Positions 4,870-20,547 of a stretch of DNA of 64,000 nt are shown here, in pieces. The DNA comes from Chitinophaga pinensis (GTDB taxonomy: Bacteria; Bacteroidota; Bacteroidia; NS11-12g; UBA955). The first letter of the stretch is position 1; each line of letters opens with the position of its first letter. The DNA is taken from the NCBI GenBank assembly GCA_945871905.1, contig CAMBXL010000004.1, positions 1 through 64,000 of the forward strand. The letters are read 5' to 3'. Position numbers and translations under genes: made by a program. A model generated the notes under the pieces. It worked only from the letters and a program-made list of their open reading frames with translations. It was not told where the DNA came from and made no database searches.

Positions 4870-7800
4870 CTATTCTATTATTATTTTTTGAGTAAATACT
4901 TGGTTTTGCTGCCAAACTTTCAGAAGATAAACGCCTTTTGGGTCTTTACTTAAATCGATAACAGTTGATTGACTGTTTGCTATCATTCTTTCATCTATTT
5001 TTTGCCCAAGCATAGACCAAACCTCAATAAGGTTATAATTATTTATATACTTAAATTTAATCGTAAATATACCATTACTTGGATTTGGATAAACCTCTAT
5101 TTTACTTGCATTTAATTCATTGACATATAATTTGTTGACTGTTACGCAGTTTGAGGTGTCTTTACAATTGTTTTGCGTAATTTCTACCGCATATTCACCA
5201 TTGATGTTAGGTCGGAATGTTCTTGAGGTTGCCCCTTCAATTTTTTGCCATTGTGGTGAGCACACATACCATTGATAATCTACTTGAGTGGCACTAGCGG
5301 TTAGTAAAGTGTCTTCTGATATGATGTTAATATTCGGTTTGATAACAGTAAGTTTAATTGAAATCAAACTATCACAACCAAAGTAATTGGCAATTGTAAC
5401 AGAAAATGAATCAGAATCGTAATGAGGATTTCCTATTGGATCAACGTAAACTCGACAACTTGAAGTATTTATTGAGCTCGAGGAGTTTTTAATTTTCAAA
5501 TTAATTTGAATCAAACTGTCACAACCTTTATAGTTTGGAATAACAACATTAAAGGATTTACTTTCTTTGTGTAAAGAACCATCGGGTGCTATATAGGTGT
5601 GGCAGACTGCTGTATCAATTTTACTTTTTGAATTTAAAATACTTAAATGTATGTTTATGATACTGTCGCAACCAAGGTAATTGTTGATAGTGGAAATGTA
5701 TTCTCCTGATGAGTCAATTGTTCTTCCATCGGGTGTAATGTATGACTGACAAGCAGAAGTAATGATTGAGCTATAACTTTTAGTTTTAATCGTAACTTGT
5801 AGTTGAATAAAACTATCGCAGCCCCAATAGTTAGGAATGGTATCTCTAAATAAACCAGATTGTTTGTAGATATATTTAGAACTAGGGGATATCAAACTAT
5901 CACAACTACTAATAATAAGATTAGATTCAGTTGGAAGGCAAACAGAGGTTAATTTACCTGAAGGTCTTCCACTGTTTGTATAGTTGAAATCAAATGTTTT
6001 CTTTATGCTAGAATTGCTTAAATCATATTCAAATAGTTGTCCCAAATCAAATTTTCCTCCCAAATTGGAAGTACTGTATATTTTGTTGTTTTGCCCTGCT
6101 GTTAATCTAGAACTTGAGCTAGGATAAATTAAAGTGTCAAAATGATGTATCGTTGACAATGAATCATTGCCTAAATGGTATGTGTATAGCGTTCCTTTGT
6201 TATTATTTCCACCCTCAATTGTTATACCTATCAAAGTGTTGTTATTTCCTGCGATTAAACTTCCTGAAGGGTGATATCCAATAGTATTGTTATTAAAATC
6301 TAAAAGTTTATTGACATTTTGGTTTTGAATATCAACTTCAAACAATACTCCAAAACCGTCTTTTCCTCCTTGGGTTGTTACGCCGTATAACTTACCATTT
6401 GAAGCTTGAAAAAGTTCGCTATTAGGTTCAAATCCCCAAAGTGTGTCATCAAAATCTATTATTGGGGTGAGTTGTGAATTGCTTGGATTAAATTTAAAAA
6501 GAGTTCCAAAGTCATTATTGCCGCCAAATGAAGTAACGCCATACAAGTTATTGTCTTGAGCTAAGGCAAGTCCTGCAATAGGTTCTGCGCCAACTGTTGA
6601 GTAGTTGAAATCTGCTTTTTTTGTGGTTTGTAAAGTTTGAGGATTGTATTCATAAATGGTTCCATCATTATTGTTGCCACCAAAGCGTGTTACTCCCCAA
6701 ATACGATTTTGGTAATAACAAAGTTGACCAGTAGGTTGAAAGCCAAGGGTAGTTGAAAATTCAGTTCTTTTGTAATATTCATTGTTTTTAAGGTCATATT
6801 CATACAACGTTCCCAAGTTAGTAGCTCCATTATTTTGATTGGTGCCACCAAATACAGTCGTTCCAAAGAGTGTATAAGCGTATGGATTTATAACAGTACT
6901 TTGTGGTGAATAGCCATTGTCAGATTGGTTTAAATGTTTTTTTACGGTAAAAGTATTGTTATTGATAGAATATTCAAACAAGACTCCTGAATTATTTAAT
7001 CCACCTCGGTTTGTGAGTCCAACTATTTTTTGATTAGGCATTAAAACAACACTTCCAAATGGATTTCTACCATTGCTGCCATTAAAATTAACACGTACAG
7101 ATAATGTTGAATTATTGGTATTGTATTCAAACAAAGTACCTTGTGAATTACTTCCACCTTGAGAGGTAAGACCATAGAGAATGCCATTTCCAGTATGCAC
7201 TAATTTCCCAAAAGGATTTCGTCCATAGTTTGATCCATCAAAATCAATTCTCTTCACAAACGAATCATTTTGAATATTGAATTCAAACAGGGTTCCAATA
7301 TTATTAGTTCCGCCCAAAAAAGTCATACCGTACAACAATCCATTAGGCGCAAGTTCTAATTCACCATAAGGACTACTTCCTGAATTAGTGCCATTAAAAT
7401 TGAATTTAACCTGAAAAGAGTCAATACTTGGAGAATATTCGAAAATAATTCCGAAGTTATTTTGTCCCCCTTGGAATGTCATTCCATACATTTTGTTATT
7501 TACTAGATATAAACTTCCAAATGGATTTCTTCCAGAGTTTGTTCCATCCATTTCAACTTTTGCTTTCAAACTGTCCGTTGACAAGTCATATTCAAATAAA
7601 ACCCCTGCATTGTATGTGCCACCTTGATAGGCTAAACCATAGAGTTTATTATTAAGCATAGTGACACTTCCAAAAGGATTTCTACCATTTGATGCACCAT
7701 TAAAATGAGCCAAAATTTGATAAGATTGATTGCTGATTGTGTATTCAAAGATTACACCGTGATTAAAATTGCCACCAGCACTTGTTAGTCCATATAATTT

Positions 7801-8172
7801 ACCATTATTAAAAATCAAACTACCAGTAGGGGTTATTCCATTAGCCTCAGAAAAATCAAATCTTTTGGTGAAAGTGTTAAGACTGTCGTTGTATTCAAAC
7901 AAGACACCGTTGTTGTATTTTCCTCCAGAAGTTGTAAGGCCGTAAAGGGTGTGATTCCCCACATATGTAAGTTGAGTGTAGCGAGGATTGGCACCAGAAA
8001 TGCCATCAAATAAATGAATATTGTTTAGGTTGTTTCCGTTTATATCTGTTTTAAAAAGAGTTCCAAACTCATTTCCACCGTTTGATGTTACCCCTATAAG
8101 TCCAGGTTGTGCAGATAAACTGACAACTATCAAAAAGAAAATGAATATAAGTATGAGTTTTTTTAATATCAT
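4870..8172 (-). CDS. Giant exported GloVer-repeat protein with T9SS type A sorting domain
   Basis: An 1100-residue secreted protein. Residues 1-22 form a signal peptide. Residues about 24-700 contain 14 repeats of the GloVer type (G-x-T-x2-GG-x2-N-x-GTLFEY), probably a beta-propeller-like fold. Residues about 755-945 hold four ~44-residue repeats, each with a leading Cys and a closing NYxGCDSxI. An Ig-like stretch follows. From about residue 1025 comes a C-terminal sorting domain starting VYPNPSNGIF and ending KGVYLLKV...QKIIIE, which directs export and surface attachment by type IX secretion. It has no operon partners; it is convergent with lysA. Substrate or adhesive target unknown. Confidence 0.88.
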   Translation of the reverse strand: MILKKLILIFIFFLIVVSLSAQPGLIGVTSNGGNEFGTLFKTDINGNNLNNIHLFDGISGANPRYTQLTYVGNHTLYGLTTSGGKYNNGVLFEYNDSLNTFTKRFDFSEANGITPTGSLIFNNGKLYGLTSAGGNFNHGVIFEYTISNQSYQILAHFNGASNGRNPFGSVTMLNNKLYGLAYQGGTYNAGVLFEYDLSTDSLKAKVEMDGTNSGRNPFGSLYLVNNKMYGMTFQGGQNNFGIIFEYSPSIDSFQVKFNFNGTNSGSSPYGELELAPNGLLYGMTFLGGTNNIGTLFEFNIQNDSFVKRIDFDGSNYGRNPFGKLVHTGNGILYGLTSQGGSNSQGTLFEYNTNNSTLSVRVNFNGSNGRNPFGSVVLMPNQKIVGLTNRGGLNNSGVLFEYSINNNTFTVKKHLNQSDNGYSPQSTVINPYAYTLFGTTVFGGTNQNNGATNLGTLYEYDLKNNEYYKRTEFSTTLGFQPTGQLCYYQNRIWGVTRFGGNNNDGTIYEYNPQTLQTTKKADFNYSTVGAEPIAGLALAQDNNLYGVTSFGGNNDFGTLFKFNPSNSQLTPIIDFDDTLWGFEPNSELFQASNGKLYGVTTQGGKDGFGVLFEVDIQNQNVNKLLDFNNNTIGYHPSGSLIAGNNNTLIGITIEGGNNNKGTLYTYHLGNDSLSTIHHFDTLIYPSSSSRLTAGQNNKIYSTSNLGGKFDLGQLFEYDLSNSSIKKTFDFNYTNSGRPSGKLTSVCLPTESNLIISSCDSLISPSSKYIYKQSGLFRDTIPNYWGCDSFIQLQVTIKTKSYSSIITSACQSYITPDGRTIDSSGEYISTINNYLGCDSIINIHLSILNSKSKIDTAVCHTYIAPDGSLHKESKSFNVVIPNYKGCDSLIQINLKIKNSSSSINTSSCRVYVDPIGNPHYDSDSFSVTIANYFGCDSLISIKLTVIKPNINIISEDTLLTASATQVDYQWYVCSPQWQKIEGATSRTFRPNINGEYAVEITQNNCKDTSNCVTVNKLYVNELNASKIEVYPNPSNGIFTIKFKYINNYNLIEVWSMLGQKIDERMIANSQSTVIDLSKDPKGVYLLKVWQQNQVFTQKIIIE

Positions 8173-8266: not shown

Positions 8267-8288
8267 ACAAATTTGGGTTTATTGAACT

Positions 8289-8296
8289 TAGTTTTG
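8289..8296 (+). promoter_or_regulatory. TAGTTTTG -7 element for the tauE-like gene
   Basis: Exact TAnnTTTG. The ATG at 8303 is only 6 nt further on, so the transcript would be nearly leaderless. No independent -33 TTG is conserved among the four sulfur promoters, which suits activator dependence. Confidence 0.6.
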
Positions 8297-8302
8297 CTCA
8301 TT

Positions 8303-9100
8303 ATGGAAATTATAGGATATATAGCATCAATCTTAATTGGCGTCTCATTAGGATTAATTGGAGGAGGGGGTAGTATTTTAACTGTCCCGGTTTTGGTTTA
8401 TTTATTTGGGGTTAACCCCGTAGTAGCCACAGGTTATTCTTTGTTTATTGTTGGTATAACAAGTTCTGTTGGAACTTATTCTTACTTTAAAAAAGGTTTA
8501 GTAAATATTAAAACAGCAGTTGTTTTTGGTATTCCCTCAATAATAGCGGTATTTTTAACAAGGGCATACATAGTACCTGCAATACCTTCAGAGGTTTTTA
8601 CAATTGGAAGTTTGGTGGTTACCAAAAGTATTTTAATGATGATCATATTTGCTGTTTTAATGATAGCGGCTTCATACAGTATGATTAAAAAAGACAAAGC
8701 CAAAAAAGAGGAAGAAGCAAGTAAACAAACCTTTAACTATCCTGTCATTTTATTAGAGGGTATGGTTGTTGGTATTTTAACAGGATTAGTAGGTGCAGGA
8801 GGTGGTTTTTTAATTATTCCGGCATTAGTGGTATTGAGTAAATTGCCGATGAAAGAGGCTGTAGGAACATCTTTGGTGATTATTGCGGCAAAGTCATTAA
8901 TTGGATTTTTGGGAGAGGGTGCCGAAGTTCAAGTTGATTGGACCTTCCTAATGACTATTTCAGCTTTTGCAATAGTGGGAATATTTGTTGGAACTTATTT
9001 GTCAAAGAAAATAGAAGGTGCTAAATTAAAACCAACTTTTGGGTGGTTTGTATTGGTGATGGGGATTTATATTATCATAAAAGAACTATTTTTAAAATAA
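8303..9100 (+). CDS. TauE/SafE-family sulfite/sulfur-anion exporter
   Basis: A 265-residue integral membrane protein with about eight hydrophobic segments and the two related glycine-rich halves typical of TauE/SafE (GLIGGGGSILTVPVL near the start, GLVGAGGGFLIIPAL in the middle). Family members export sulfite, sulfoacetate or related anions. Placed 6 nt before sulfide:quinone oxidoreductase and behind the sulfur operator, it probably removes sulfite made during sulfide oxidation. The frame reaches back to a TTG at 8273, but the ATG at 8303 lies downstream of the -7 element and gives a normal N-terminus. Confidence 0.85.
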   Translation: MEIIGYIASILIGVSLGLIGGGGSILTVPVLVYLFGVNPVVATGYSLFIVGITSSVGTYSYFKKGLVNIKTAVVFGIPSIIAVFLTRAYIVPAIPSEVFTIGSLVVTKSILMMIIFAVLMIAASYSMIKKDKAKKEEEASKQTFNYPVILLEGMVVGILTGLVGAGGGFLIIPALVVLSKLPMKEAVGTSLVIIAAKSLIGFLGEGAEVQVDWTFLMTISAFAIVGIFVGTYLSKKIEGAKLKPTFGWFVLVMGIYIIIKELFLK

Positions 9101-9106
9101 AATATC

Positions 9107-10381
9107 ATGAAAAAGAAATTTCAAATCGTTATTATTGGTGCAGGGAACGCCGGTATTTCAGTAGCTGTACAGTTGCTAAGAAAAAACAGTGGTTTAGACA
9201 TTGCCTTAGTTGATCCTTCGGAATACCACTACTATCAACCTGCATATACCTTAGTTGCTGCGGGTGTATTTGACATCAATAAAACAAAGAAATTTCAAAA
9301 AGATTACATTCCTCAAAACACTACTTGGATAAAAGACTCTGTTACAGAATTTAAACATGACACCAACAGCATAGTATGCGGAAGTGGGAATGAAATCAGT
9401 TATGATATAATGATAGTTGCCCCAGGAATTCAATTGGATTGGTCGAAAATTAAAGGTTCAAAAGAAGCTATTTTTAACAACCCAAAAGTAACATCAAATT
9501 ATTTGTTTGAATTGCCTACTAAGACATGGCAAATGATTCAAGATTTCAAAGGAGGAGTTGCGGTGTTTACCAATCCTAATACGCCAATAAAATGTGGTGG
9601 AGCCCCTCATAAAATCATGTATTTGGCTGTCGATTATTGGAGAAAAAAAGGAATTTTAGACAAATGTCAAGTTCACTATATAAGTGGTGCAGGGGTTTTG
9701 TTTGGTATTAAAGAATATTTAGGAGCGTTAGAGCAAACAGTTGCAGAAGGAAACATACACACCCATTTTGGTTCCAATGTGGTAGAAATTAATTCAAGTA
9801 ACAATACCGTTGTGTATGAAACAAAAGCCAATAAAGAAGTTTTGGAAAATGAAGTTAAACAATTTGGTGGCGCCTGCTATGGAATAACAGAACAAGCCGA
9901 CGAACAATTAAAAAAAGTAGAAATAGCTTTTGATTTTTGCCATGTAGTTCCTCCACAATCGGCTCCGGATTTTGTTAAAAACAGTCCTTTAGCAGACCCC
10001 AACAATCCCCATGGTTATGTTGAAGTGGACATGTACACGTTGCAACACAGTAGGTTTAAAAATGTATTTTCTTTAGGCGATGTTATTAATGCCCCATGTA
10101 GTAAAACGGGTGCGGCAATTCGTAAACAAGCTCCTGTGGTGGTTGATAATATTTTAAGTTATCTGAAAAACGAAGCAATAGTGGCGAAATATTCTGGATA
10201 CAGTGCTTGTCCAATCCCAACAAAATATGGTAGATTATTATTAGCCGAATTTGATTATACCAACAAACCTGCAATGTCATTTCCAATCAACCAAACTAAA
10301 CCTTGGTGGGTAATGTGGATTTTGAAATTAAAGATATTGCCTTGGCTTTATTGGAATAAAATTTTAAAAGGAACCGCTTAG
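9107..10381 (+). CDS. sqr: Sulfide:quinone oxidoreductase (FAD flavoprotein)
   Basis: A 424-residue two-dinucleotide-binding flavoprotein. It has an N-terminal FAD motif (VIIGAGNAGIS), PIKCGGAPHK with Cys163, a C-terminal FAD segment FSLGDVINAPCSKTGAA with Cys331, and a hydrophobic, Trp-rich tail suited to membrane and quinone contact. The two cysteines sit where SQR keeps its redox pair. The enzyme oxidises H2S to a persulfide or polysulfide and passes electrons to quinone. Co-transcribed with the TauE/SafE gene. The related NADH dehydrogenase family lacks the CGGAP and APCSKT cysteines. Confidence 0.9.
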   Translation: MKKKFQIVIIGAGNAGISVAVQLLRKNSGLDIALVDPSEYHYYQPAYTLVAAGVFDINKTKKFQKDYIPQNTTWIKDSVTEFKHDTNSIVCGSGNEISYDIMIVAPGIQLDWSKIKGSKEAIFNNPKVTSNYLFELPTKTWQMIQDFKGGVAVFTNPNTPIKCGGAPHKIMYLAVDYWRKKGILDKCQVHYISGAGVLFGIKEYLGALEQTVAEGNIHTHFGSNVVEINSSNNTVVYETKANKEVLENEVKQFGGACYGITEQADEQLKKVEIAFDFCHVVPPQSAPDFVKNSPLADPNNPHGYVEVDMYTLQHSRFKNVFSLGDVINAPCSKTGAAIRKQAPVVVDNILSYLKNEAIVAKYSGYSACPIPTKYGRLLLAEFDYTNKPAMSFPINQTKPWWVMWILKLKILPWLYWNKILKGTA

Positions 10382-10382
10382 T

Positions 10383-10396
10383 GTAACAAAAGTGAC
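10383..10396 (+). promoter_or_regulatory. Operator 2: GTAACAAAAGTGAC upstream of the yeeE-tsdA-soxB operon
   Basis: It begins 2 nt after the sqr stop codon and 36 nt before the -7 element at 10419. It fits GTAAC-N4-GTTAC with one arm change. Confidence 0.65.
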
Positions 10397-10418
10397 TAAA
10401 CAAAAATGACGAACATCA

Positions 10419-10426
10419 TATTTTTG
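10419..10426 (+). promoter_or_regulatory. TATTTTTG -7 element for the yeeE-tsdA-soxB operon
   Basis: Exact TAnnTTTG match. The predicted start of transcription near 10430 leaves a leader of about 16 nt before the ATG at 10446. Confidence 0.6.
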
Positions 10427-10445
10427 CATTAATAAATTAGAAGAA

Positions 10446-11021
10446 ATGAATATTATAGAATTTATCACACAACCTTGGCCGTGGTACGTAGCGGGCCCAT
10501 TGATTGGATTAACAGTGCCTACCTTATTGATTTTAGGTAACAAAACCTTTGGAATTAGTTCCTCTATGCGACATATTTGTGCCGCTTGTATTCCTGCAAA
10601 AATTCCGTTTTTTCAATATGATTGGAAAAAAGAAATTTGGAATTTGGTGTTTGTACTTGGCATTTTCTTTGGTGCTGTTATTGCCACACAATTGTTTTCA
10701 AATCCAGAAGATATAATTGTTAGCGAAAAGTTAGTCAATGACATTAAACAATATGGTATTACAGATTACAGTCAGTTAGTTCCTGTAGATCTATTAAATT
10801 GGGAGTCATTAATAACAGTAAGAGGCTTTATAATGATTGTAATTGGAGGATTTATGGTTGGTTTTGGAACCCGTTATGCAGGAGGTTGTACAAGTGGACA
10901 TGCAATTATGGGATTGTCTAGTTTGCAATGGCCTTCATTGGTTGCAACATGCTGCTTTATGTTAGGGGGTATAGTGATGGCCAATTTTATTTTACCTTTT
11001 ATTTTATCAATTCAATTTTAA
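10446..11021 (+). CDS. YeeE/YedE-family sulfur transporter, first half
   Basis: A 191-residue membrane protein with about four to five hydrophobic segments and the hallmark RYAGGCTSGHAIMGLS, whose Cys in GGCTSGH is the thiosulfate-relaying residue of YeeE/TsuA transporters. Full-length YeeE proteins contain two such halves; here the second is encoded by the next gene, 12 nt downstream. Expected role: moving thiosulfate or a related sulfur species across the inner membrane. First gene of the five-gene unit ending with the soxB-like gene. Confidence 0.87.
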   Translation: MNIIEFITQPWPWYVAGPLIGLTVPTLLILGNKTFGISSSMRHICAACIPAKIPFFQYDWKKEIWNLVFVLGIFFGAVIATQLFSNPEDIIVSEKLVNDIKQYGITDYSQLVPVDLLNWESLITVRGFIMIVIGGFMVGFGTRYAGGCTSGHAIMGLSSLQWPSLVATCCFMLGGIVMANFILPFILSIQF

Positions 11022-11033
11022 ACAAGAAAAATT

Positions 11034-11522
11034 ATGCAAGAAAAACAAGAATATCAAGTTAGATCAACAGATGCAGTTTGTGTCAATGAAAGTCAATTAA
11101 AAGACAAATGGTATAGCAATATCAAGTATCTTATAGTCGGTATCTCTTTTGGTTTCATCTTTGTAAAAGCTGAAATCGTAAGTTGGTTCAGAATACAAGA
11201 AATGTTTAGATTTCAATCTTTTCATATGTATGGCGTTATAGGAAGCGCTGTTATTGTTGGAATGATATCAGTTTGGATTATCAAAAAATTTAAAGTCAAG
11301 TCAATCCAAGGAGAAAAGATTGTTATTCAGAATAAAACATTTAACAAAGGACAAATTTATGGTGCTTTAATATTCGGTTTTGGTTGGGCATTGACAGGAG
11401 CTTGTCCGGGACCATTGTTTGCTCAAATCGGAACAGGCGCTACAGTTGTTTCAATAACTTTGTTGAGTGCTATTTTAGGAACATGGGTTTACGGATATTT
11501 CAGAGATAAACTACCACATTAA
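11034..11522 (+). CDS. YeeE/YedE-family sulfur transporter, second half (DUF6691)
   Basis: A 162-residue membrane protein with an N-terminal cytoplasmic stretch (to about residue 30) and about four transmembrane segments. Its FGWALTGACPGPLFAQIG motif carries the second conserved relay cysteine of the YeeE fold. It pairs with the preceding half to form a split transporter. The spacing to both neighbours (12 and 11 nt) supports a single mRNA. Confidence 0.85.
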   Translation: MQEKQEYQVRSTDAVCVNESQLKDKWYSNIKYLIVGISFGFIFVKAEIVSWFRIQEMFRFQSFHMYGVIGSAVIVGMISVWIIKKFKVKSIQGEKIVIQNKTFNKGQIYGALIFGFGWALTGACPGPLFAQIGTGATVVSITLLSAILGTWVYGYFRDKLPH

Positions 11523-11533
11523 TCAATAAATAT

Positions 11534-12619
11534 ATGGAAAACAATAAACAGACCTTGAACCAAAAAGAAAACGATTTACTGAAAATTATTCAAAGTTTAA
11601 TTTCGGTTATCTTATTGTTTGTCTTTTCAATTGTTGTTGTGTTGATTTTCTTTATCTATCAACCAGATTTTAGTTCATGGTTTGGAGAAAATGAGGATGA
11701 GCAAAAGAGTGAACAATCTGTCAATAGTATAACAGAATCAGCTCCACAAGTTCCGCTTGATGATTTTTGGAAGCCAGCTTTAATCTCTGATGATTTATCA
11801 CCCGAAATTAAAGCTCAAATAGAATATGGCAAAGAATTAATTGTTCATACTTCAAAATATTTGGGCCCTAAAGGGTCGGTTAAGCCAATTAGCAATGGAA
11901 TGAATTGTCAAAACTGTCATTTGGATGCAGGGACAAAACCTTGGGGAAATAATTATGGGGCTGTGTTTTCTACTTATCCCAAATACAGAGCTAGAAGTGG
12001 GAGTAAAGAAGATTTGACCAAACGTGTCAATGATTGTTTTGAAAGAAGTTTGAATGGCAAACCATTGAAAGAAGACAGTAAAGAAATGATTGCTATTAAA
12101 GCATACATTGAGTTTATTGGAAAGGAAGTGCCTAAAAGTGAAAAACCTAAAGGGTCTGGAATCTATGATTTAGCATTTATAGACCGCCCAATTGATCCTA
12201 TCAAAGGGAAGGTTCTGTATGAAGGTAAATGCCAATCTTGTCATCAAGTAAACGGTGAAGGGCAAATGAATGCTGATGGAACAGAATATTTGTTTCCACC
12301 TTTGTGGGGCAAAAACTCGTATAACCATGGCGCAGGGCTGTATAGAATGAGTAGAATGGCGGGTTATATTAGATACAACATGCCTCAAGGTGCAAGTTTT
12401 GCAAAACCTCAATTGACAGATGAAGAAGCTTGGGACATTGCTGCCTTTATTAATTCTCAAGAAAGACCAAGCAAAAGCCTGAAAAAGGATTGGCCTAAAA
12501 TAGAAGAAAAACCATTCGATCATCCTTTTGGTCCATTTGCTGATAATTTTACCGAAGCTGAACATAAATTTGGTCCTTATCAACCGATAGTGGATGCCAA
12601 AAAACAAAACAAAAAATAA
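11534..12619 (+). CDS. tsdA: Dihaem c-type cytochrome, thiosulfate dehydrogenase TsdA-like
   Basis: A 361-residue membrane-anchored (TM about residues 17-40) periplasmic cytochrome with two haem sites, CQNCH (Cys125-His129) and CQSCH (Cys233-His237). The sequence NCQNCHLDAGTKPWG and a lone Cys168 in NDCFERSLNGKPL match TsdA, in which a cysteine ligates the active haem. TsdA joins two thiosulfates to tetrathionate, or does the reverse. It sits between the split transporter and DsrE/SoxB-like genes. Reaction direction cannot be read from sequence. A generic electron-transfer cytochrome is less likely because of the distal Cys. Confidence 0.85.
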   Translation: MENNKQTLNQKENDLLKIIQSLISVILLFVFSIVVVLIFFIYQPDFSSWFGENEDEQKSEQSVNSITESAPQVPLDDFWKPALISDDLSPEIKAQIEYGKELIVHTSKYLGPKGSVKPISNGMNCQNCHLDAGTKPWGNNYGAVFSTYPKYRARSGSKEDLTKRVNDCFERSLNGKPLKEDSKEMIAIKAYIEFIGKEVPKSEKPKGSGIYDLAFIDRPIDPIKGKVLYEGKCQSCHQVNGEGQMNADGTEYLFPPLWGKNSYNHGAGLYRMSRMAGYIRYNMPQGASFAKPQLTDEEAWDIAAFINSQERPSKSLKKDWPKIEEKPFDHPFGPFADNFTEAEHKFGPYQPIVDAKKQNKK

Positions 12620-12623
12620 TCTC

Positions 12624-13046
12624 ATGAAAAAAACAATTCTAATCTCAAGCGTTTTAATTTCAGTTTTGTCTGTAATAGCATTTACAAGCAAAAAAGAAAA
12701 ACAACACCGCATCGTTTTTCAATTTACAAATGCAGACACTTTGCAACAAAAAGCCTTTACCAAACAGTTGCAAAATATAACAGACTATTGGCCTAATGTA
12801 AAAATTGAAGTGGTGGTTTATAACAAAGGATTGGAATATTTAATGACAGATTTTTCTAAACATATCAAAGAAATAGAGGCTTTAAAAGCAAAAGGAGTTA
12901 ACTTTGTTGTTTGTGAAAACACTATGAAACAGAGGAAAATAGAAAAAACAAAATTCATACAATCTGCAACCTATATTCCTGCAGGAATTATTGAAATAGT
13001 AGAAAAGCAAGAACAGGGTTGGAGTTATGTAAAAGGAGGGTATTAA
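12624..13046 (+). CDS. Exported DsrE-family sulfur-carrier-like protein
   Basis: A 140-residue protein starting at the ATG after tsdA; the frame also runs back into tsdA, but the signal-peptide-like start MKKTILIS is preferred. After the hydrophobic N-terminus comes a DsrE/F-like fold (KIEVVVYNKGLEYLM, GVNFVVCENTM) with one cysteine, Cys97, at the position that carries sulfur in DsrE/TusD relatives. It probably binds or relays sulfane sulfur in the periplasm. Spaced 4 nt after tsdA and 1 nt before the soxB-like gene. Confidence 0.8.
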   Translation: MKKTILISSVLISVLSVIAFTSKKEKQHRIVFQFTNADTLQQKAFTKQLQNITDYWPNVKIEVVVYNKGLEYLMTDFSKHIKEIEALKAKGVNFVVCENTMKQRKIEKTKFIQSATYIPAGIIEIVEKQEQGWSYVKGGY

Positions 13047-13047
13047 T

Positions 13048-14739
13048 ATGAAGAACAATAATAGAAGAAATTTTTTAAAGTCTTTAGGGACTATAGGATT
13101 AGGTGCTACAGTAATAGCGCCTATTTCTGCTTTTGCTGACAATACAAAAAACGAAAATGTAGATAAAACATACTCGAAAGATGAAGTAGTAAAAGTGAAT
13201 ATTTTACAAACTACTGACATCCATTGTCAAGTTCATCCACACGACGAGTTGTTTTGGGAAAACAATCAATCTGTTTTTAGAACAACAGGCGGATATCCTC
13301 AAATTACAACTTTACTTAATCAGTTAAGAAAAAAACACAAGCACACGTTTACCATAGATACTGGTGATATGTTTCAAGGGAGTGAACTCAGTATGAAAAC
13401 GACTGGAAAAGCGTTTGTTCCAATTTTGAATACCATGAATTACGACTTATATCTGCCAGGAAATTGGGAGGTGATTTATGGAAAAAGAAGCATGCAAACA
13501 CTTTTGGGTTCTTTAAATGCACCTAAAATTTGTGCCAACATGTACCATGATTTAGGTGAAGGAAAGAAAGGAGAATTAATTTTTCAACCTTACCATATTT
13601 GGAATGTAGCAGGTGTTAAAATTGGTTTTATTGGATATACCGACCCATTGGTGCCAATAAGACAAAATCCAAATTACAGCAAAGGGATTCTGTATACCAA
13701 ACCTGAGGAAAATTTGGCACATTACGTAGATGTATTGAAAAATCAAGAACAATGCGCAGCCATTATGATTATTGCACATTTAGGATTGTCACAACAAATT
13801 GCATTAGCAAATATGCCTGAATGTGAGGGTGTTTCTTATATTTTGGGTGGCGATACGCACGAAAGAGTAAGAGTGCCCATTCAATGTAAATATTCCAAAG
13901 TTGTAGAACCTGGAGCATTTGGTTCTTTTATCGGTAATTTGGAATTAAGTATAAAAAATGGCGTTTTAATTGGAGATAAATATGATTTAATAGAAGTGAA
14001 AAGTAATTCATTGAAACCTAACAAAGAGATGCTTTCTATTATTTCCGAAAACGAACATTTATACAAAGAACACATCAATGAAATTGTTGGATATAGTAAA
14101 TTGCCTTTGTATAGATATTTTGTTATTGAAAATCCTATTGATACCATGATAGTTCAAGCACTTAAATGGAAGTTTAGTGATATTGACGTGGTTTTGTCTA
14201 ATGGATTTAGATTTTGTCCACCGCGTTCAACGCCGGATAAAACAGGAAATATTCCCATAACGAATGGTTATTTATTTGACATGTTGCCAATAGATAGTAA
14301 TGTTAGGATTGGGAAAGTAACAGGCACACAACTGAATAAATGGCTCGAAAAAGAATTGAATAATGTGTTTGCTAAAGATGCCAATAAACGTTTTGGCGGA
14401 TGGGTTGTTAAGTTTGAAGGTATGAAAGTTGAGTTTAAAGCTTTTGCTGAAGAGGGTCAAAGAGTTCAAAAGGTTGAAATAAACGGAGAACCATTGAATT
14501 TAGAAAAAACATATAAAATTTTAGCTTGTGAGAGAGATGGAGATCCAGAGGATATGCTTTGTCGAATGAAAAATGTAAAGGAACCTAAAACATTGCCTAA
14601 TACTCTTCATCAAACCATGAAAGAATATTTGAAAGAATTTTCTCCTGTAGTTCCAACACCAAAACACAACGCAGTGGCATTGGATGCGCCTGAAACATTG
14701 TTAACTCAGGTATACGGAGTTGATTATACTTTCAGATAA
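13048..14739 (+). CDS. soxB: SoxB-like thiosulfohydrolase (metallophosphatase / 5'-nucleotidase fold), Tat-exported
   Basis: A 563-residue two-domain hydrolase. The twin-arginine motif NRRNFLK near residue 6 implies folded export. The metallophosphatase part has TTDIHCQ, DTGDMFQGSE, GNWEVIYG, IIAHLG and GGDTHERV; NWE instead of the NHE/NHD of 5'-nucleotidases is a SoxB hallmark. The C-terminal 5'-nucleotidase domain follows from about residue 350 (LSNGFRFCPPRSTP). SoxB cleaves sulfate from a sulfur chain held on SoxYZ. No soxYZ or soxXA lies in the window, so the carrier is unknown. Last gene of the operon. Confidence 0.83.
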   Translation: MKNNNRRNFLKSLGTIGLGATVIAPISAFADNTKNENVDKTYSKDEVVKVNILQTTDIHCQVHPHDELFWENNQSVFRTTGGYPQITTLLNQLRKKHKHTFTIDTGDMFQGSELSMKTTGKAFVPILNTMNYDLYLPGNWEVIYGKRSMQTLLGSLNAPKICANMYHDLGEGKKGELIFQPYHIWNVAGVKIGFIGYTDPLVPIRQNPNYSKGILYTKPEENLAHYVDVLKNQEQCAAIMIIAHLGLSQQIALANMPECEGVSYILGGDTHERVRVPIQCKYSKVVEPGAFGSFIGNLELSIKNGVLIGDKYDLIEVKSNSLKPNKEMLSIISENEHLYKEHINEIVGYSKLPLYRYFVIENPIDTMIVQALKWKFSDIDVVLSNGFRFCPPRSTPDKTGNIPITNGYLFDMLPIDSNVRIGKVTGTQLNKWLEKELNNVFAKDANKRFGGWVVKFEGMKVEFKAFAEEGQRVQKVEINGEPLNLEKTYKILACERDGDPEDMLCRMKNVKEPKTLPNTLHQTMKEYLKEFSPVVPTPKHNAVALDAPETLLTQVYGVDYTFR

Positions 14740-14777
14740 TCTATTTAGGTAAAAATTATTCAAAATATTTCATAAGG

Positions 14778-14791
14778 GTAACAAATGTTAC
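14778..14791 (+). promoter_or_regulatory. Operator 3: GTAACAAATGTTAC upstream of the porin gene
   Basis: The best of the four sites: perfect 6-bp arms GTAACA/TGTTAC around a 2-base centre. It lies 36 nt before the -7-like element at 14814. It overlaps an upstream ATG at 14785, which argues that translation starts at 14833. Confidence 0.7.
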
Positions 14792-14813
14792 AATTTCTCT
14801 GTCATATTCTAGA

Positions 14814-14821
14814 GAAATTTG
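14814..14821 (+). promoter_or_regulatory. GAAATTTG -7-like element for the porin gene
   Basis: It matches TAnnTTTG except for the first base. Its position is fixed by the same 36-nt spacing to the operator as at the other three promoters. Confidence 0.5.
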
Positions 14822-14832
14822 CACCTAACTTT

Positions 14833-16275
14833 ATGAATATTATTTCTTTTACAAAAGCTTGTTTTTTATTGGTAGTTTTTGTTGTATCGATTTCCCTAAA
14901 TGCACAACACCAAGAAATTAATGAAAATCCTCAGGTATGGAAAGGCAAGCAACATGATAGTTTAAATAAAAGTGAAGATAATTTTCTTCAGGCATTTAAA
15001 AAAGGGCATGCCAGCGGTCATTTTAGGTATTTTTTTATGAATACCCAAAATCAAGGAGACTTAACAGACTACTATGCCAATGCAATAGGTGGAGGATTAA
15101 AATTTGAAACAGCCAAATTTCATAATTTCCAGTTTGGAGTAAGTGGCTTTTATATTTTCAATATTGGTTCATCAGATTTTGGACATTTAGATCCTGCTAC
15201 TGGTTTAGCCAATAGATATGAAATAGGACTTTTTGACATTTCAGATATTCATAATAAATATCACATGGATAGATTAGAAGAACTGTACATAAAATACAAT
15301 TTCAAATCTTCTAGGGTGCAATTTGGTAAGCAAATGATAAATACGCCTTTTATCAATCTTCAAGATGGTAGAATGAGACCTACTGAAGTTGAGGCATTAT
15401 GGGCTGACATAAAAATAAATCCAAAATTAAGATTTGAAGGGGGGTATATATTTAATATTTCGCCAAGAAGTACATTGAAATTTTATTCAGTACCGCATTC
15501 AATTGGTGTGTATCCCTCAGGAATTAATATTGAAGGAAAACCATCAAACTACAAAGGGAATTTATCATCAAAAGGGATTTTTCATTTTGGATTAAATGCC
15601 AAAGTTGCGAAGAATTTAAATGTACAAATTTGGGATTTGGTGGCAGAAAATATATTTCATTCAGTTTATTTTGAAACCAATTATAAGCATAAATTGAGTC
15701 CAAGTCACGAATTAAACTTTGGATTCCAATCAGTGTATCAGCATGCTTTAAATAATGGAGGAAATGACAGTTTTCATAAAACCTATTATCCCACTTCCGA
15801 AAGAGGATTAACCTTTGGTGGCAGAATTGGGATTAAACACAAAAGATATTCAATAAGTGCCAACTATAACAGAATTACAGCACATGGCCGTTATTTGATG
15901 CCTCGTGAATGGGGTAGAGATCCTTTTTACACTTTTTTGCCTAGAGAGAGAAATGAAGGTTTGGGAGATGTAAATGCTTTGGTTTTGAAATCATCGTTTC
16001 AACCCTTGAACTCTAATTTCAAATACAGTTTAGGCGCAGGCTATTTCGACTTGCCTGATGTTAAAAATGTGCGACTCAATAAATATGGGATGCCATCATA
16101 CTATCAAATTAATGCAGACTTAAGATATCACTTTAAAGGGGAATTAGAAGGGTTTGATTTACAAGTGTTGTGGGTACATAAAATCAATGCCTATTCAGGA
16201 TTCTTAGAAAACCGTTTTATTATTAATAAAGTAAACATGAATAATTTGAATGTTATTCTAAACTTTCATTTTTAA
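14833..16275 (+). CDS. OprD-like outer-membrane porin
   Basis: A 481-codon frame from the ATG at 14833; an in-frame ATG at 14785 lies inside the operator and would spoil the signal peptide. Residues 1-25 form the signal peptide (core ACFLLVVFVVS, end NAQ). The rest is alternating aromatic/polar strands of a beta-barrel, with LEELYIKYNF and VQFGKQMINTPFINLQDGRM resembling OprD-type porins, and a terminal Phe as in many outer-membrane proteins. It shares operator type with the sulfur genes, so a plausible job is uptake of thiosulfate or another sulfur compound. Convergent with fhs, 4-nt gap. Confidence 0.75.
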   Translation: MNIISFTKACFLLVVFVVSISLNAQHQEINENPQVWKGKQHDSLNKSEDNFLQAFKKGHASGHFRYFFMNTQNQGDLTDYYANAIGGGLKFETAKFHNFQFGVSGFYIFNIGSSDFGHLDPATGLANRYEIGLFDISDIHNKYHMDRLEELYIKYNFKSSRVQFGKQMINTPFINLQDGRMRPTEVEALWADIKINPKLRFEGGYIFNISPRSTLKFYSVPHSIGVYPSGINIEGKPSNYKGNLSSKGIFHFGLNAKVAKNLNVQIWDLVAENIFHSVYFETNYKHKLSPSHELNFGFQSVYQHALNNGGNDSFHKTYYPTSERGLTFGGRIGIKHKRYSISANYNRITAHGRYLMPREWGRDPFYTFLPRERNEGLGDVNALVLKSSFQPLNSNFKYSLGAGYFDLPDVKNVRLNKYGMPSYYQINADLRYHFKGELEGFDLQVLWVHKINAYSGFLENRFIINKVNMNNLNVILNFHF

Positions 16276-18077: not shown

Positions 18078-18722
18078 ATGAGTGAACATGCTATTGAACA
18101 AGAATTTAATATTACCGGTGAATTACGTCAAAAGTTATACGATAACAGTATCGTAAAGAATTATAAGGCGGGAGATATTATATTAGATGAAAATGCAAGC
18201 ATAAGATCAATTCCTATTGTAACAAAAGGAAGTATTAGAGTAATGAGAAGTGATGATGAAGGGAGAGAAATATTTCTTTATTACATCAAAGCAGGTGAGA
18301 GTTGTATCATGTCTTTTTTGGGTGGAATGCACAACGAAACCTCAAAAGTAAGAGCTGAGGTAGAAGAAGATGCCGAAATTTTGTTTTTACCGGTTGAGAA
18401 AGTAACATTGTTTATTCGTGATTATCCTCAATGGTTGGATTATATTTTCAGATTGTATCACAAAAGATTCGAGGAATTATTGGAAGTGGTAAATGCCATA
18501 GCCTTTAAAAAAGTAGATGAGAGGTTATTATTGCTATTGAGAAAAAAAGCAGATTTAATGAAAAGTAATGTTATTATAGTGTCGCATGAGCATTTGGCAA
18601 ATGAGCTAGCAACAGCTAGGGTAGTGGTTTCACGACTTTTAAAGCAGCTAGAAGATGAAGGCGTGGTGGAGTTGGGACGCAATAAAATCACCATACTTAA
18701 AAAGAGTATTTTGGAAAGTTAG
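18078..18722 (+). CDS. Crp/Fnr-family transcriptional regulator
   Basis: A 214-residue regulator. It has an N-terminal cyclic-nucleotide-binding-type barrel (about 20-125, IVTKGSIRVMR...), a dimerisation helix (about 125-155), and a winged helix with recognition segment HEHLANELATARVVVSRLLKQL. It has only one cysteine (SCIMSF, about residue 76), so it cannot bind an Fnr-type Fe-S cluster; a thiol or persulfide signal at that Cys is possible but unproven. It lies between the porin/fhs pair and the persulfide dioxygenase unit, at the centre of the sulfur island, and is the best candidate for binding the four GTAAC operators. Confidence 0.88.
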   Translation: MSEHAIEQEFNITGELRQKLYDNSIVKNYKAGDIILDENASIRSIPIVTKGSIRVMRSDDEGREIFLYYIKAGESCIMSFLGGMHNETSKVRAEVEEDAEILFLPVEKVTLFIRDYPQWLDYIFRLYHKRFEELLEVVNAIAFKKVDERLLLLLRKKADLMKSNVIIVSHEHLANELATARVVVSRLLKQLEDEGVVELGRNKITILKKSILES

Positions 18723-18793: not shown

Positions 18794-20212
18794 ATGCAAG
18801 TAGAACAAATTTACACAGGATGTTTAGCTCAAGGAGCTTATTACATCACGTCGAATGGTGAGGCTATTATTATTGACCCACTTAGAGAAACCCAACCTTA
18901 CATGGAGCGTTTACAAAGAGATGGCGTTCAGTTAAAATATATTTTAGAAACACATTTTCACGCAGATTTCGTGAGCGGACACGTGGATTTAAGTAAAAAA
19001 ACAGGTGCCCCTATCGTTTATGGACCAACGGCTCAACCAACTTTTGATGCCATTATTGCTACTGATAATCAACTATTAAAAGTAGGCAATATTCAAATTA
19101 AAGTGTTACACACTCCCGGTCATACCATGGAAAGTACTACTTATTTGTTGATAGATGAAAACGGAAAAGACTACGCTATTTTTAGTGGAGATACTTTGTT
19201 TTTAGGAGATGTAGGTCGTCCAGACTTAGCTCAAAAAGCAGCAAGTATGACTCAAGAGGATTTAGCTGGTTTATTGTACGAAAGTTTAAATAACAAAATT
19301 ATGCCGTTGGCAGATGATGTTATTGTTTATCCTGCTCACGGTGCCGGTAGTGCTTGTGGTAAAAACATGATGAAAGAAACTGTGGATACTTTAGGCAATC
19401 AAAAGAAAATGAACTATGCCTTAAATCAACCTAATAAAGAAGCCTTTATTGCAGCTGTAACAGATGGTTTGTTACCTCCTCCGGGTTATTTTGGAATGAA
19501 CGTTGCCATGAACAAATTTGGTTATGAGAGTTTCGAAAATGTATTAAACAACGGATTACGTGCATTAACAGTTGAAGAATTTGAAGTAGCTGCTGAGGAA
19601 ACTGGCTCTGTAATTATAGATACAAGAGCAAATGGTGATTTTGCAAAAGGTTTCGTTCCTCAATCTATCAATATTGGTATAAAAGGTGACTTTGCGCCTT
19701 GGGTTGGTGCTATGATTATAGATGTTAAACAACCTATTTTAATAGTTACTAATGTTGGTGAAGAAGAAGAAGTGGTAACAAGATTGAGTAGAGTAGGTTT
19801 TGACAATGTTTTAGGGCATTTAAAAGGTGGATACGATGCTTGGTTAGCCTCTGGTAAAGAAACGGATAAAGTAAACCGCATTACTGCTGATACATTTGCA
19901 GAACAAGTTAAAATTGGTGAATCTAAAATTGTGGATATTAGAAAAGAATCAGAATATGCAGCAGAACATGTAGACGAAGCCTACAGTATGCCTTTAGCTG
20001 ACATTAATGAGTGGATCAAAGATGTTAAACCTGAAGAGCATTTCTTTATGCATTGTGCAGGTGGGTACAGAAGCATGATTGCCGCTAGTATTTTACAAGC
20101 AAGAGGATACCGTAATTTTACAGAAGTAGAAGGTGGTTTTGCTTCTATTTCTAAAACCAATGTACCTAAATCAGATTTTGTATGTCAGTCAAAAGTTTTA
20201 AAACAATCTTAA
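18794..20212 (+). CDS. Metallo-beta-lactamase-fold persulfide dioxygenase with two rhodanese domains
   Basis: A 472-residue cytoplasmic protein. The N-terminal MBL domain (about 1-250) has THFHADFVSGH (His54, His56, Asp58), TPGHTMES, FSGDTLFLGDVGRPDL and YPAHGAGSACG, as in ETHE1-type dioxygenases that oxidise persulfides to sulfite using one iron. The usual second His after HxHAD is Phe59. Rhodanese domain 1 (about 260-355) lacks the active-site Cys; rhodanese domain 2 (about 365-460) has it (CAGGYR, Cys421). It probably takes persulfide made by SQR and yields sulfite. First gene of a six-gene unit. Confidence 0.88.
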   Translation: MQVEQIYTGCLAQGAYYITSNGEAIIIDPLRETQPYMERLQRDGVQLKYILETHFHADFVSGHVDLSKKTGAPIVYGPTAQPTFDAIIATDNQLLKVGNIQIKVLHTPGHTMESTTYLLIDENGKDYAIFSGDTLFLGDVGRPDLAQKAASMTQEDLAGLLYESLNNKIMPLADDVIVYPAHGAGSACGKNMMKETVDTLGNQKKMNYALNQPNKEAFIAAVTDGLLPPPGYFGMNVAMNKFGYESFENVLNNGLRALTVEEFEVAAEETGSVIIDTRANGDFAKGFVPQSINIGIKGDFAPWVGAMIIDVKQPILIVTNVGEEEEVVTRLSRVGFDNVLGHLKGGYDAWLASGKETDKVNRITADTFAEQVKIGESKIVDIRKESEYAAEHVDEAYSMPLADINEWIKDVKPEEHFFMHCAGGYRSMIAASILQARGYRNFTEVEGGFASISKTNVPKSDFVCQSKVLKQS

Positions 20213-20547
20213 TATTAGGAGGACTATTCGTTATGTTTAATTTTTTTAATAATCTATTCGCACAAGGTGACAATAACCAATTACAAGCTGCTATCAATGA
20301 AGGTGCTTATTTGGTAGACTTAAGAACACAAGGAGAATTTGCCGATGGAACAGCAAAAGGTGCTGTAAATATTCCACTCGACCAAGTTCAAAACCAAATA
20401 GCTAAGTTCAAAAACAAGAAACACATTGTGTTTTTTTGCAGAAGTGGAAGCAGAAGTAGTCAAGCAAAAGCCATATTAGAAAAAAAAGGTTTTACCAATG
20501 TAATCAATGGTGGCACTTGGCAAAATGTAAGTGGTTTAGTTAAATAA
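20182..20547 (+). CDS. Exported single-domain rhodanese
   Basis: A 121-residue protein with a signal peptide (about 1-28, ending LFAQ) and one rhodanese domain with active loop CRSGSRS (Cys86). Rhodaneses move sulfane sulfur between donors and thiols; the signal places this one in the periplasm. The first ATG lies 31 nt inside the preceding gene in another frame. It is retained because it gives a complete signal peptide, while a later ATG at 20233 would truncate it. Co-transcribed and probably translationally coupled. Confidence 0.85.
   Translation: MSVKSFKTILILGGLFVMFNFFNNLFAQGDNNQLQAAINEGAYLVDLRTQGEFADGTAKGAVNIPLDQVQNQIAKFKNKKHIVFFCRSGSRSSQAKAILEKKGFTNVINGGTWQNVSGLVK

Follow-up and report, generated by a model that had tools for sequence, protein, structure and literature searches.

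The window, the whole stretch of 64,000 nucleotides analysed here, lies on contig C4 of a 2.50 Mb genome (completeness 99.7%) and carries a cluster of sulfur genes in which a TsdA-like cytochrome, a DsrE-like protein and a SoxB-like protein (hereafter SoxBL) are encoded one after another. A sequence-only reading had placed the TsdA-like and SoxB-like enzymes side by side with no SoxXA or SoxYZ nearby, and had taken the DsrE-like protein as a possible alternative carrier. The three open reading frames (ORFs) were confirmed, with TsdA at 11534-12619, SoxBL at 13048-14739 and intergenic gaps of 4 and 1 bases, within a same-strand (+) run of eight genes (8273-16275). Because the gaps across this run are of only 1 to 64 bases, it is likely to be a single transcription unit. 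Overall, the results support the SoxYZ independence of the TsdA/SoxBL route, and the DsrE-like protein probably does not stand in for SoxYZ as the carrier. The features of the cluster and its surroundings are the following:

8273..9100, + strand: TauE/SafE family exporter, likely for sulfite export (PF01925, 165.8 bits)
9107..10381, + strand: SQR-like FAD oxidoreductase, a relative of sulfide:quinone reductase (SQR) type III (NF049943, 206 bits, below the cut-off of 525; PF07992)
10446..11021, + strand: PmpA-like YeeE/YedE half-transporter, corresponding to the C-terminal half of TsuA (PF04143, 62.4 bits, strongest over profile positions 258-309 of 310)
11034..11522, + strand: PmpB-like YeeE/YedE (DUF6691) half-transporter, corresponding to the N-terminal half (PF04143, profile positions 10-104; PF20398)
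11534..12619, + strand: TsdA-like dihaem cytochrome c with an N-terminal hydrophobic anchor, predicted thiosulfate dehydrogenase (4wqc, E 4e-45; PF21342)
12624..13046, + strand: DsrE-like exported protein with a single Cys97, accessory (PF02635; 1l1s, E 2.2e-10)
13048..14739, + strand: SoxBL metallophosphatase with a Tat-type (twin-arginine translocation) RR signal, proposed to hydrolyse sulfonate (PF00149 and PF02872; fold 2wdc, Z 39.6)
14785..16275, + strand: OprD-like outer-membrane porin (PF03573, 29.7 bits, cut-off 25)
18078..18722, + strand: Crp/Fnr-type regulator (PF00027, PF13545)
18794..20212, + strand: metallo-beta-lactamase (MBL) fold persulfide/sulfur dioxygenase with rhodanese domains, SdoA-like (metallo-beta-lactamase and rhodanese family matches)
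20182..20547, + strand: single-domain rhodanese (PF00581)

To begin with, SoxBL is a relative of SoxB that forms a distinct clade, and it is not a canonical SoxB. On this point the sequence-only reading is corrected, although fold and sequence are both closest to SoxB. By sequence, the closest solved structure was Thermus SoxB (2wdc, E 2.7e-28), at an identity to canonical SoxB of about 25%, and the protein is built of a metallophosphatase and a 5′-nucleotidase C-terminal domain, as in SoxB. Its AlphaFold2 model (mean pLDDT, the predicted local distance difference test, of 88.1) was best aligned to SoxB 2wdc (Z 39.6, root-mean-square deviation 2.1, 483 residues), with 5′-nucleotidases at Z 37.2, although the Foldseek E-value ranked the putative 5′-nucleotidase 3ivd marginally first. 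However, against the SoxB equivalog model TIGR04486 it scored 244.6 bits, short of the curated cut-off of 550, and the SoxBL proteins of all 23 genomes carrying them (see below) fell below this cut-off. When 56 proteins were placed in a tree, the 33 SoxBL rows formed one group (100/100) lying outside the separately supported clade of canonical SoxB (7 rows, 99/96), while a third SoxB-like type, B2 (13 rows), grouped at 100/97; the outgroup NT (3 rows) does not hold together, and two of its rows (Sporosarcina and Natronorubrum by alignment) have the SoxB-type Trp and are therefore not clean nucleotidases.

The same 33 SoxBL, 13 B2, 7 canonical and 3 NT rows were compared at the active site. SoxBL retains the residues D57, H59, D107, H244 and H271, whose metal-site roles we presume from the metallophosphatase family. 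Its third motif, GNWE, has the Trp of SoxB together with an Asn (Asn139) as in the nucleotidase GNH, where SoxB has His. This Trp (Trp140) occupies the position of SoxB Trp175, which was located from the alignments, where 2wdc and 4uwq differ by W and C, and from PMC9774590; it was found in 33/33 SoxBL, as opposed to the His of clear nucleotidase domains. Furthermore, the GHTH motif has become G(G/A/N)DTH, with Asp269 in all 33 SoxBL and His in 23/23 other rows. Arg388 belongs to the SNGFRF motif, and an Arg was found there in 33/33 SoxBL and 7/7 canonical SoxB. At the N-terminus, R6 is nearly invariant within a consensus RRxFLK, a Tat-type signal resembling that of the canonical SoxB of locus L098, which predicts export. 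Hence, SoxBL has in common with canonical SoxB (TIGR04486; 2wdc, 4uwq) the fold, the two-domain phosphoesterase scaffold, the Trp at position 175 and the Tat-type signal, and differs from it by Asn and Asp instead of His at two active-site positions, both changes running through the whole clade, by its separate clade and by a genome without SoxYZ.

The TsdA-like protein (361 aa) contains two haem motifs, CQNCH and CQSCH, and a DCFERSLNG motif identical to that of A. vinosum TsdA in the alignment to PDB entry 4wqc, so that two CXXCH haems and the conserved Cys of TsdA are all present; we take this Cys to be a haem ligand.

The lack of SoxXA and SoxYZ noticed beside these two genes was found to extend to the whole genome, in which SoxY (PF13501), SoxZ (PF08770) and SoxC gave no matches. 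With the SoxA model (cut-off 110), the matches were limited to TsdA, at 34.5 bits, and a cytochrome of CCP/MauG type, at 18.7 bits, and with the SoxX model (cut-off 61) to one multihaem cytochrome (36.2 bits). Given the nature of these weakly matching cytochromes, a SoxXA hidden elsewhere in the genome was rejected. Among the 198 genomes of the class, neither SoxY nor SoxZ exceeded its cut-off, with a single match below it in each case (G068 and G187, respectively). As a positive control, the SoxY model scored over its cut-off in 40 out of 345 genomes of the phylum.

Regarding distribution, the SoxBL search matched 44 of the 198 class genomes, of which 20 were left out for identities of 26-31%, mostly over the N-terminal half, and another for carrying a remnant; SoxBL was thus considered present in 23 genomes, spanning 12 families. 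The remnant (G097, C44:12365-12787, locus L024) is a decayed SoxBL with 61% identity over 141 residues and two in-frame stops, in a genome with no TsdA match. TsdA (E <= 1e-20) appeared in 38 class genomes, including 23/23 of those with SoxBL (hypergeometric P 2.3e-20, with genomes treated as independent, which they are not), and no SoxY or SoxZ over the cut-off was found in any of these 23. In the phylum set, a SoxB search matched 49 of the 345 genomes, namely 15 canonical, one fragment (G506, SoxY-positive), 19 intermediate-scoring relatives (218-331 bits) and 14 at 142-161 bits, and SoxY was compared between the canonical and the intermediate ones: it was present in 15/15 of the former and 0/19 of the latter. 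Given these proportions, SoxB pairs with SoxYZ and SoxBL with TsdA, and the SoxYZ-independent route with TsdA and a SoxB-type enzyme that the sequence-only reading had envisaged gains support.

Apart from the window's own genome, 22 genomes have SoxBL, and its gene neighbourhood was considered in 20 of them (all except G053 and G148). TsdA was the most frequent companion (17 neighbourhoods), followed by the YeeE pair (14), the dioxygenase (13), the porin (12), and TauE and DsrE (11 each). Moreover, plasmid pRUNSL04 of Runella slithyformis harbours TauE, two MBL hydrolases, TsdA, DsrE, SoxBL, a porin and a YeeE pair, with TsdA, DsrE, SoxBL and porin in the same order as in the window. This plasmid (locus L127, NC_015705.1) is 44.8 kb long, and SoxBL is likewise plasmid-borne in Runella rosea.

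A precedent for such a route, and the first report of it, is Erythrobacter flavus 21-3, which is devoid of the Sox complex and is reported to convert thiosulfate to tetrathionate and then to sulfate and zero-valent sulfur (PMC7608252). When its tsdA is deleted, thiosulfate is no longer used and no tetrathionate is formed; when soxB is deleted, tetrathionate accumulates; either deletion ends the formation of sulfur, which SdoA/B oxidise (PMC7608252); the tsdA mutant still forms sulfur when fed tetrathionate (PMC9426585). The TsdA/SoxB pathway is listed in a review (PMC9774590), and eight Bohai Sea metagenome-assembled genomes that encode SoxB and TsdA but lack the other Sox genes were given the same reading (PMC12345210). 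The window shares with E. flavus TsdA, a SoxB-family protein and an MBL-fold sulfur dioxygenase in one cluster and the lack of SoxYZ, and differs in belonging to another phylum and in adding the YeeE pair, the OprD-like porin and DsrE. The YeeE pair resembles PmpA/PmpB, two half-size YeeE proteins representing the C- and N-terminal halves and reported to aid zero-valent sulfur uptake, although the window pair is longer (191 and 162 aa vs. about 130) and linked to TsdA/SoxBL (PMC11582611).

By analogy, we consider it reasonably probable that the cluster is a Bacteroidota version of the E. flavus route, in which SoxBL would act without SoxYZ and DsrE would be optional. For this organism we infer the substrate, the products and each chemical step, as follows. 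Working in the oxidative direction in the periplasm, TsdA would convert thiosulfate to tetrathionate. SoxBL, presumably exported by Tat, would cut the terminal sulfonate from free tetrathionate or from a breakdown product, yielding sulfate and sulfane or zero-valent sulfur. The PmpAB-like YeeE pair may then carry the sulfur across the inner membrane, where the dioxygenase-rhodanese would oxidise it to sulfite for putative export by TauE, and DsrE may serve as an optional sulfur-binding helper.

Several points weigh against this proposal. Co-occurrence does not equal activity, and none is known in the SoxBL clade; tsdA is not near soxBL in two genomes (G095 and G127) and is about 12 kb off in a third (G020). 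Moreover, the clade-wide change of His to Asp at position 269 could alter the metal or the substrate, and TsdA may work backwards, i.e. in tetrathionate reduction. As to the precedent, the E. flavus SoxB reaction is based, in the passages considered, on mutants and stoichiometry and not on purified enzyme, and E. flavus has two more genes with a SoxB domain, which could be deleted without affecting its sulfur globules (PMC7608252). Besides, SoxBL may or may not be an orthologue of the E. flavus SoxB.

Among the alternatives, it appears unlikely that SoxBL acts on a small-molecule thiol conjugate or uses its own Cys494/Cys505 pair as the sulfane acceptor. Both cysteines were present in 33/33 SoxBL and in none of the 13 B2 or 7 canonical SoxB, and R496, G498 and P500 between them are invariant in SoxBL as well; yet the two could equally well form a structural disulfide, and no precedent was found. 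Similarly little probability is given to a more specific proposal, in which SoxBL would be a carrier-free thiosulfohydrolase for free polythionate with a remodelled metal site (Asn139/Asp269), its Cys494/Cys505 passing sulfane sulfur to the YeeE importer and DsrE acting as a dispensable relay.

We regard as quite unlikely a reversed or detoxifying role without energy gain, in which TsdA would reduce tetrathionate and SoxBL would clear polythionates. TsdA enzymes can be bifunctional (PMC7608252), and the RYNMP of the window TsdA stands against KHKMP in the A. vinosum TsdA sequence most frequent in the PDB, with Asn instead of Lys; Asn is also the residue of entry 4wqc at this position, and Lys that of the remaining A. 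vinosum TsdA entries in the alignment listing. Nevertheless, the SQR-like enzyme, the sulfur dioxygenase and the sulfite exporter nearby suit oxidation.

The possibility raised in the sequence-only reading, that DsrE replaces SoxYZ, is judged improbable; TsdA or another oxidant would in that case load thiosulfate onto Cys97, and SoxBL would hydrolyse the sulfonate of the conjugate. The description of the protein itself was borne out: it matches PF02635 with 36.8 bits (cut-off 22.7), starts with the ATG at 12624, has a signal-like N-terminal stretch and contains one Cys, C97, while the fold of MTH1491 (1l1s, E 2.2e-10) together with PF02635 and the conserved Cys places it in the DsrE/MTH1491 family, from which it differs by the signal-like N-terminus; a SoxY-type arm is lacking. 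In favour of a carrier, dsrE and soxBL are only 1 base apart, the Cys is invariant in 12/12 cluster homologues (15/15 including the plasmid ones), and the order TsdA-DsrE-SoxBL is retained on the Runella plasmid. However, the carrier Cys of SoxY sits on a C-terminal swinging arm, whereas Cys97 of the 140 residues is internal, being the last residue of a strand before a helix, and takes no position on a flexible C-terminal arm. Furthermore, when the 23 SoxBL genomes were searched with a profile of the cluster DsrE, 13 gave a close copy, one a remote match (9.4e-7) and nine none (E <= 1e-6), as opposed to TsdA in 23/23, and the nine include the only two other genomes in the set that belong to the same family as the window. 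A compact cluster (G186, locus L035) runs TauE-PDO-rhodanese-YeeE-YeeE-TsdA-porin-SoxBL, with no small exported Cys protein between TsdA and SoxBL and no other kept ORF of at least 80 aa in between. Since an indispensable carrier would be expected in all 23 genomes, DsrE as an obligatory carrier was rejected on its distribution (close DsrE in 13/23, any match in 14/23); an unrelated protein encoded elsewhere may fill the carrier place in the genomes without DsrE.

Finally, it is highly improbable that SoxBL is a periplasmic nucleotidase or another phosphoesterase merely located in a sulfur cluster, as the shared superfamily, the top Foldseek rank of 3ivd and the nucleotidase-like Asn139 would allow, since Trp140 replaces the nucleotidase His in 33/33, SoxB is closest by sequence and by Z, and SoxBL was not found without TsdA among the 198 genomes.

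The B2 type, about 480 aa long with a conserved FSNGWRYG (loci L113-L116, L129-L131, L134-L213), was tried as a link to E. flavus, and no Erythrobacter or Qipengyuania appeared among the 80 listed loci of 582 relatives. The hosts among the matches listed were Alphaproteobacteria, Clostridia, Chloroflexi and methanogens, and several copies (e.g. L114-L116) have no signal peptide, opening directly with the catalytic domain, and therefore look cytoplasmic. A Pontibacter akesuensis plasmid (L128, 9724-16653) carries SoxBL, B2 and a third relative within 7 kb, beside sulfur genes. Indioceanicola profundi, given with TsdA and SoxB in the legend of Fig. 7 of PMC7608252, has soxY and soxZ directly before soxB (L235, 4620-5432; PF13501 138.6 bits, PF08770 110.2 bits) and is therefore not a SoxYZ-free case. 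In the window itself, positions 4870-8172 (− strand) encode a secreted 1100-aa protein in which repeats of the type GG..N.GvLFEY are numerous and the C-terminal tail is sorting-like.

In textbooks, SoxB chemistry depends on SoxYZ as its carrier. A TsdA/SoxB route that does without SoxYZ is already known from E. flavus 21-3 (PMC7608252), in a paper that also names Bacteroidetes among the groups with both TsdA and SoxB homologues (its Supplementary Table S5); beyond this mention, no description of the Bacteroidota clade or cluster was found in the literature searched. What is new, within that literature, is that a distinct SoxB-like clade appears to carry the route in Bacteroidota: it has an active-site signature of its own, goes with TsdA in 23/23 genomes and is sometimes plasmid-borne. 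As the cut-off of the SoxB model excludes this clade, surveys based on sox markers miss the organisms carrying it. SoxBL, which among the 198 genomes occurred neither with SoxYZ nor without TsdA, offers a clean natural test of free-tetrathionate hydrolysis by SoxB-type enzymes, and, if the proposed route is true, many Bacteroidota would join the thiosulfate oxidisers, some of them with clusters borne on plasmids.

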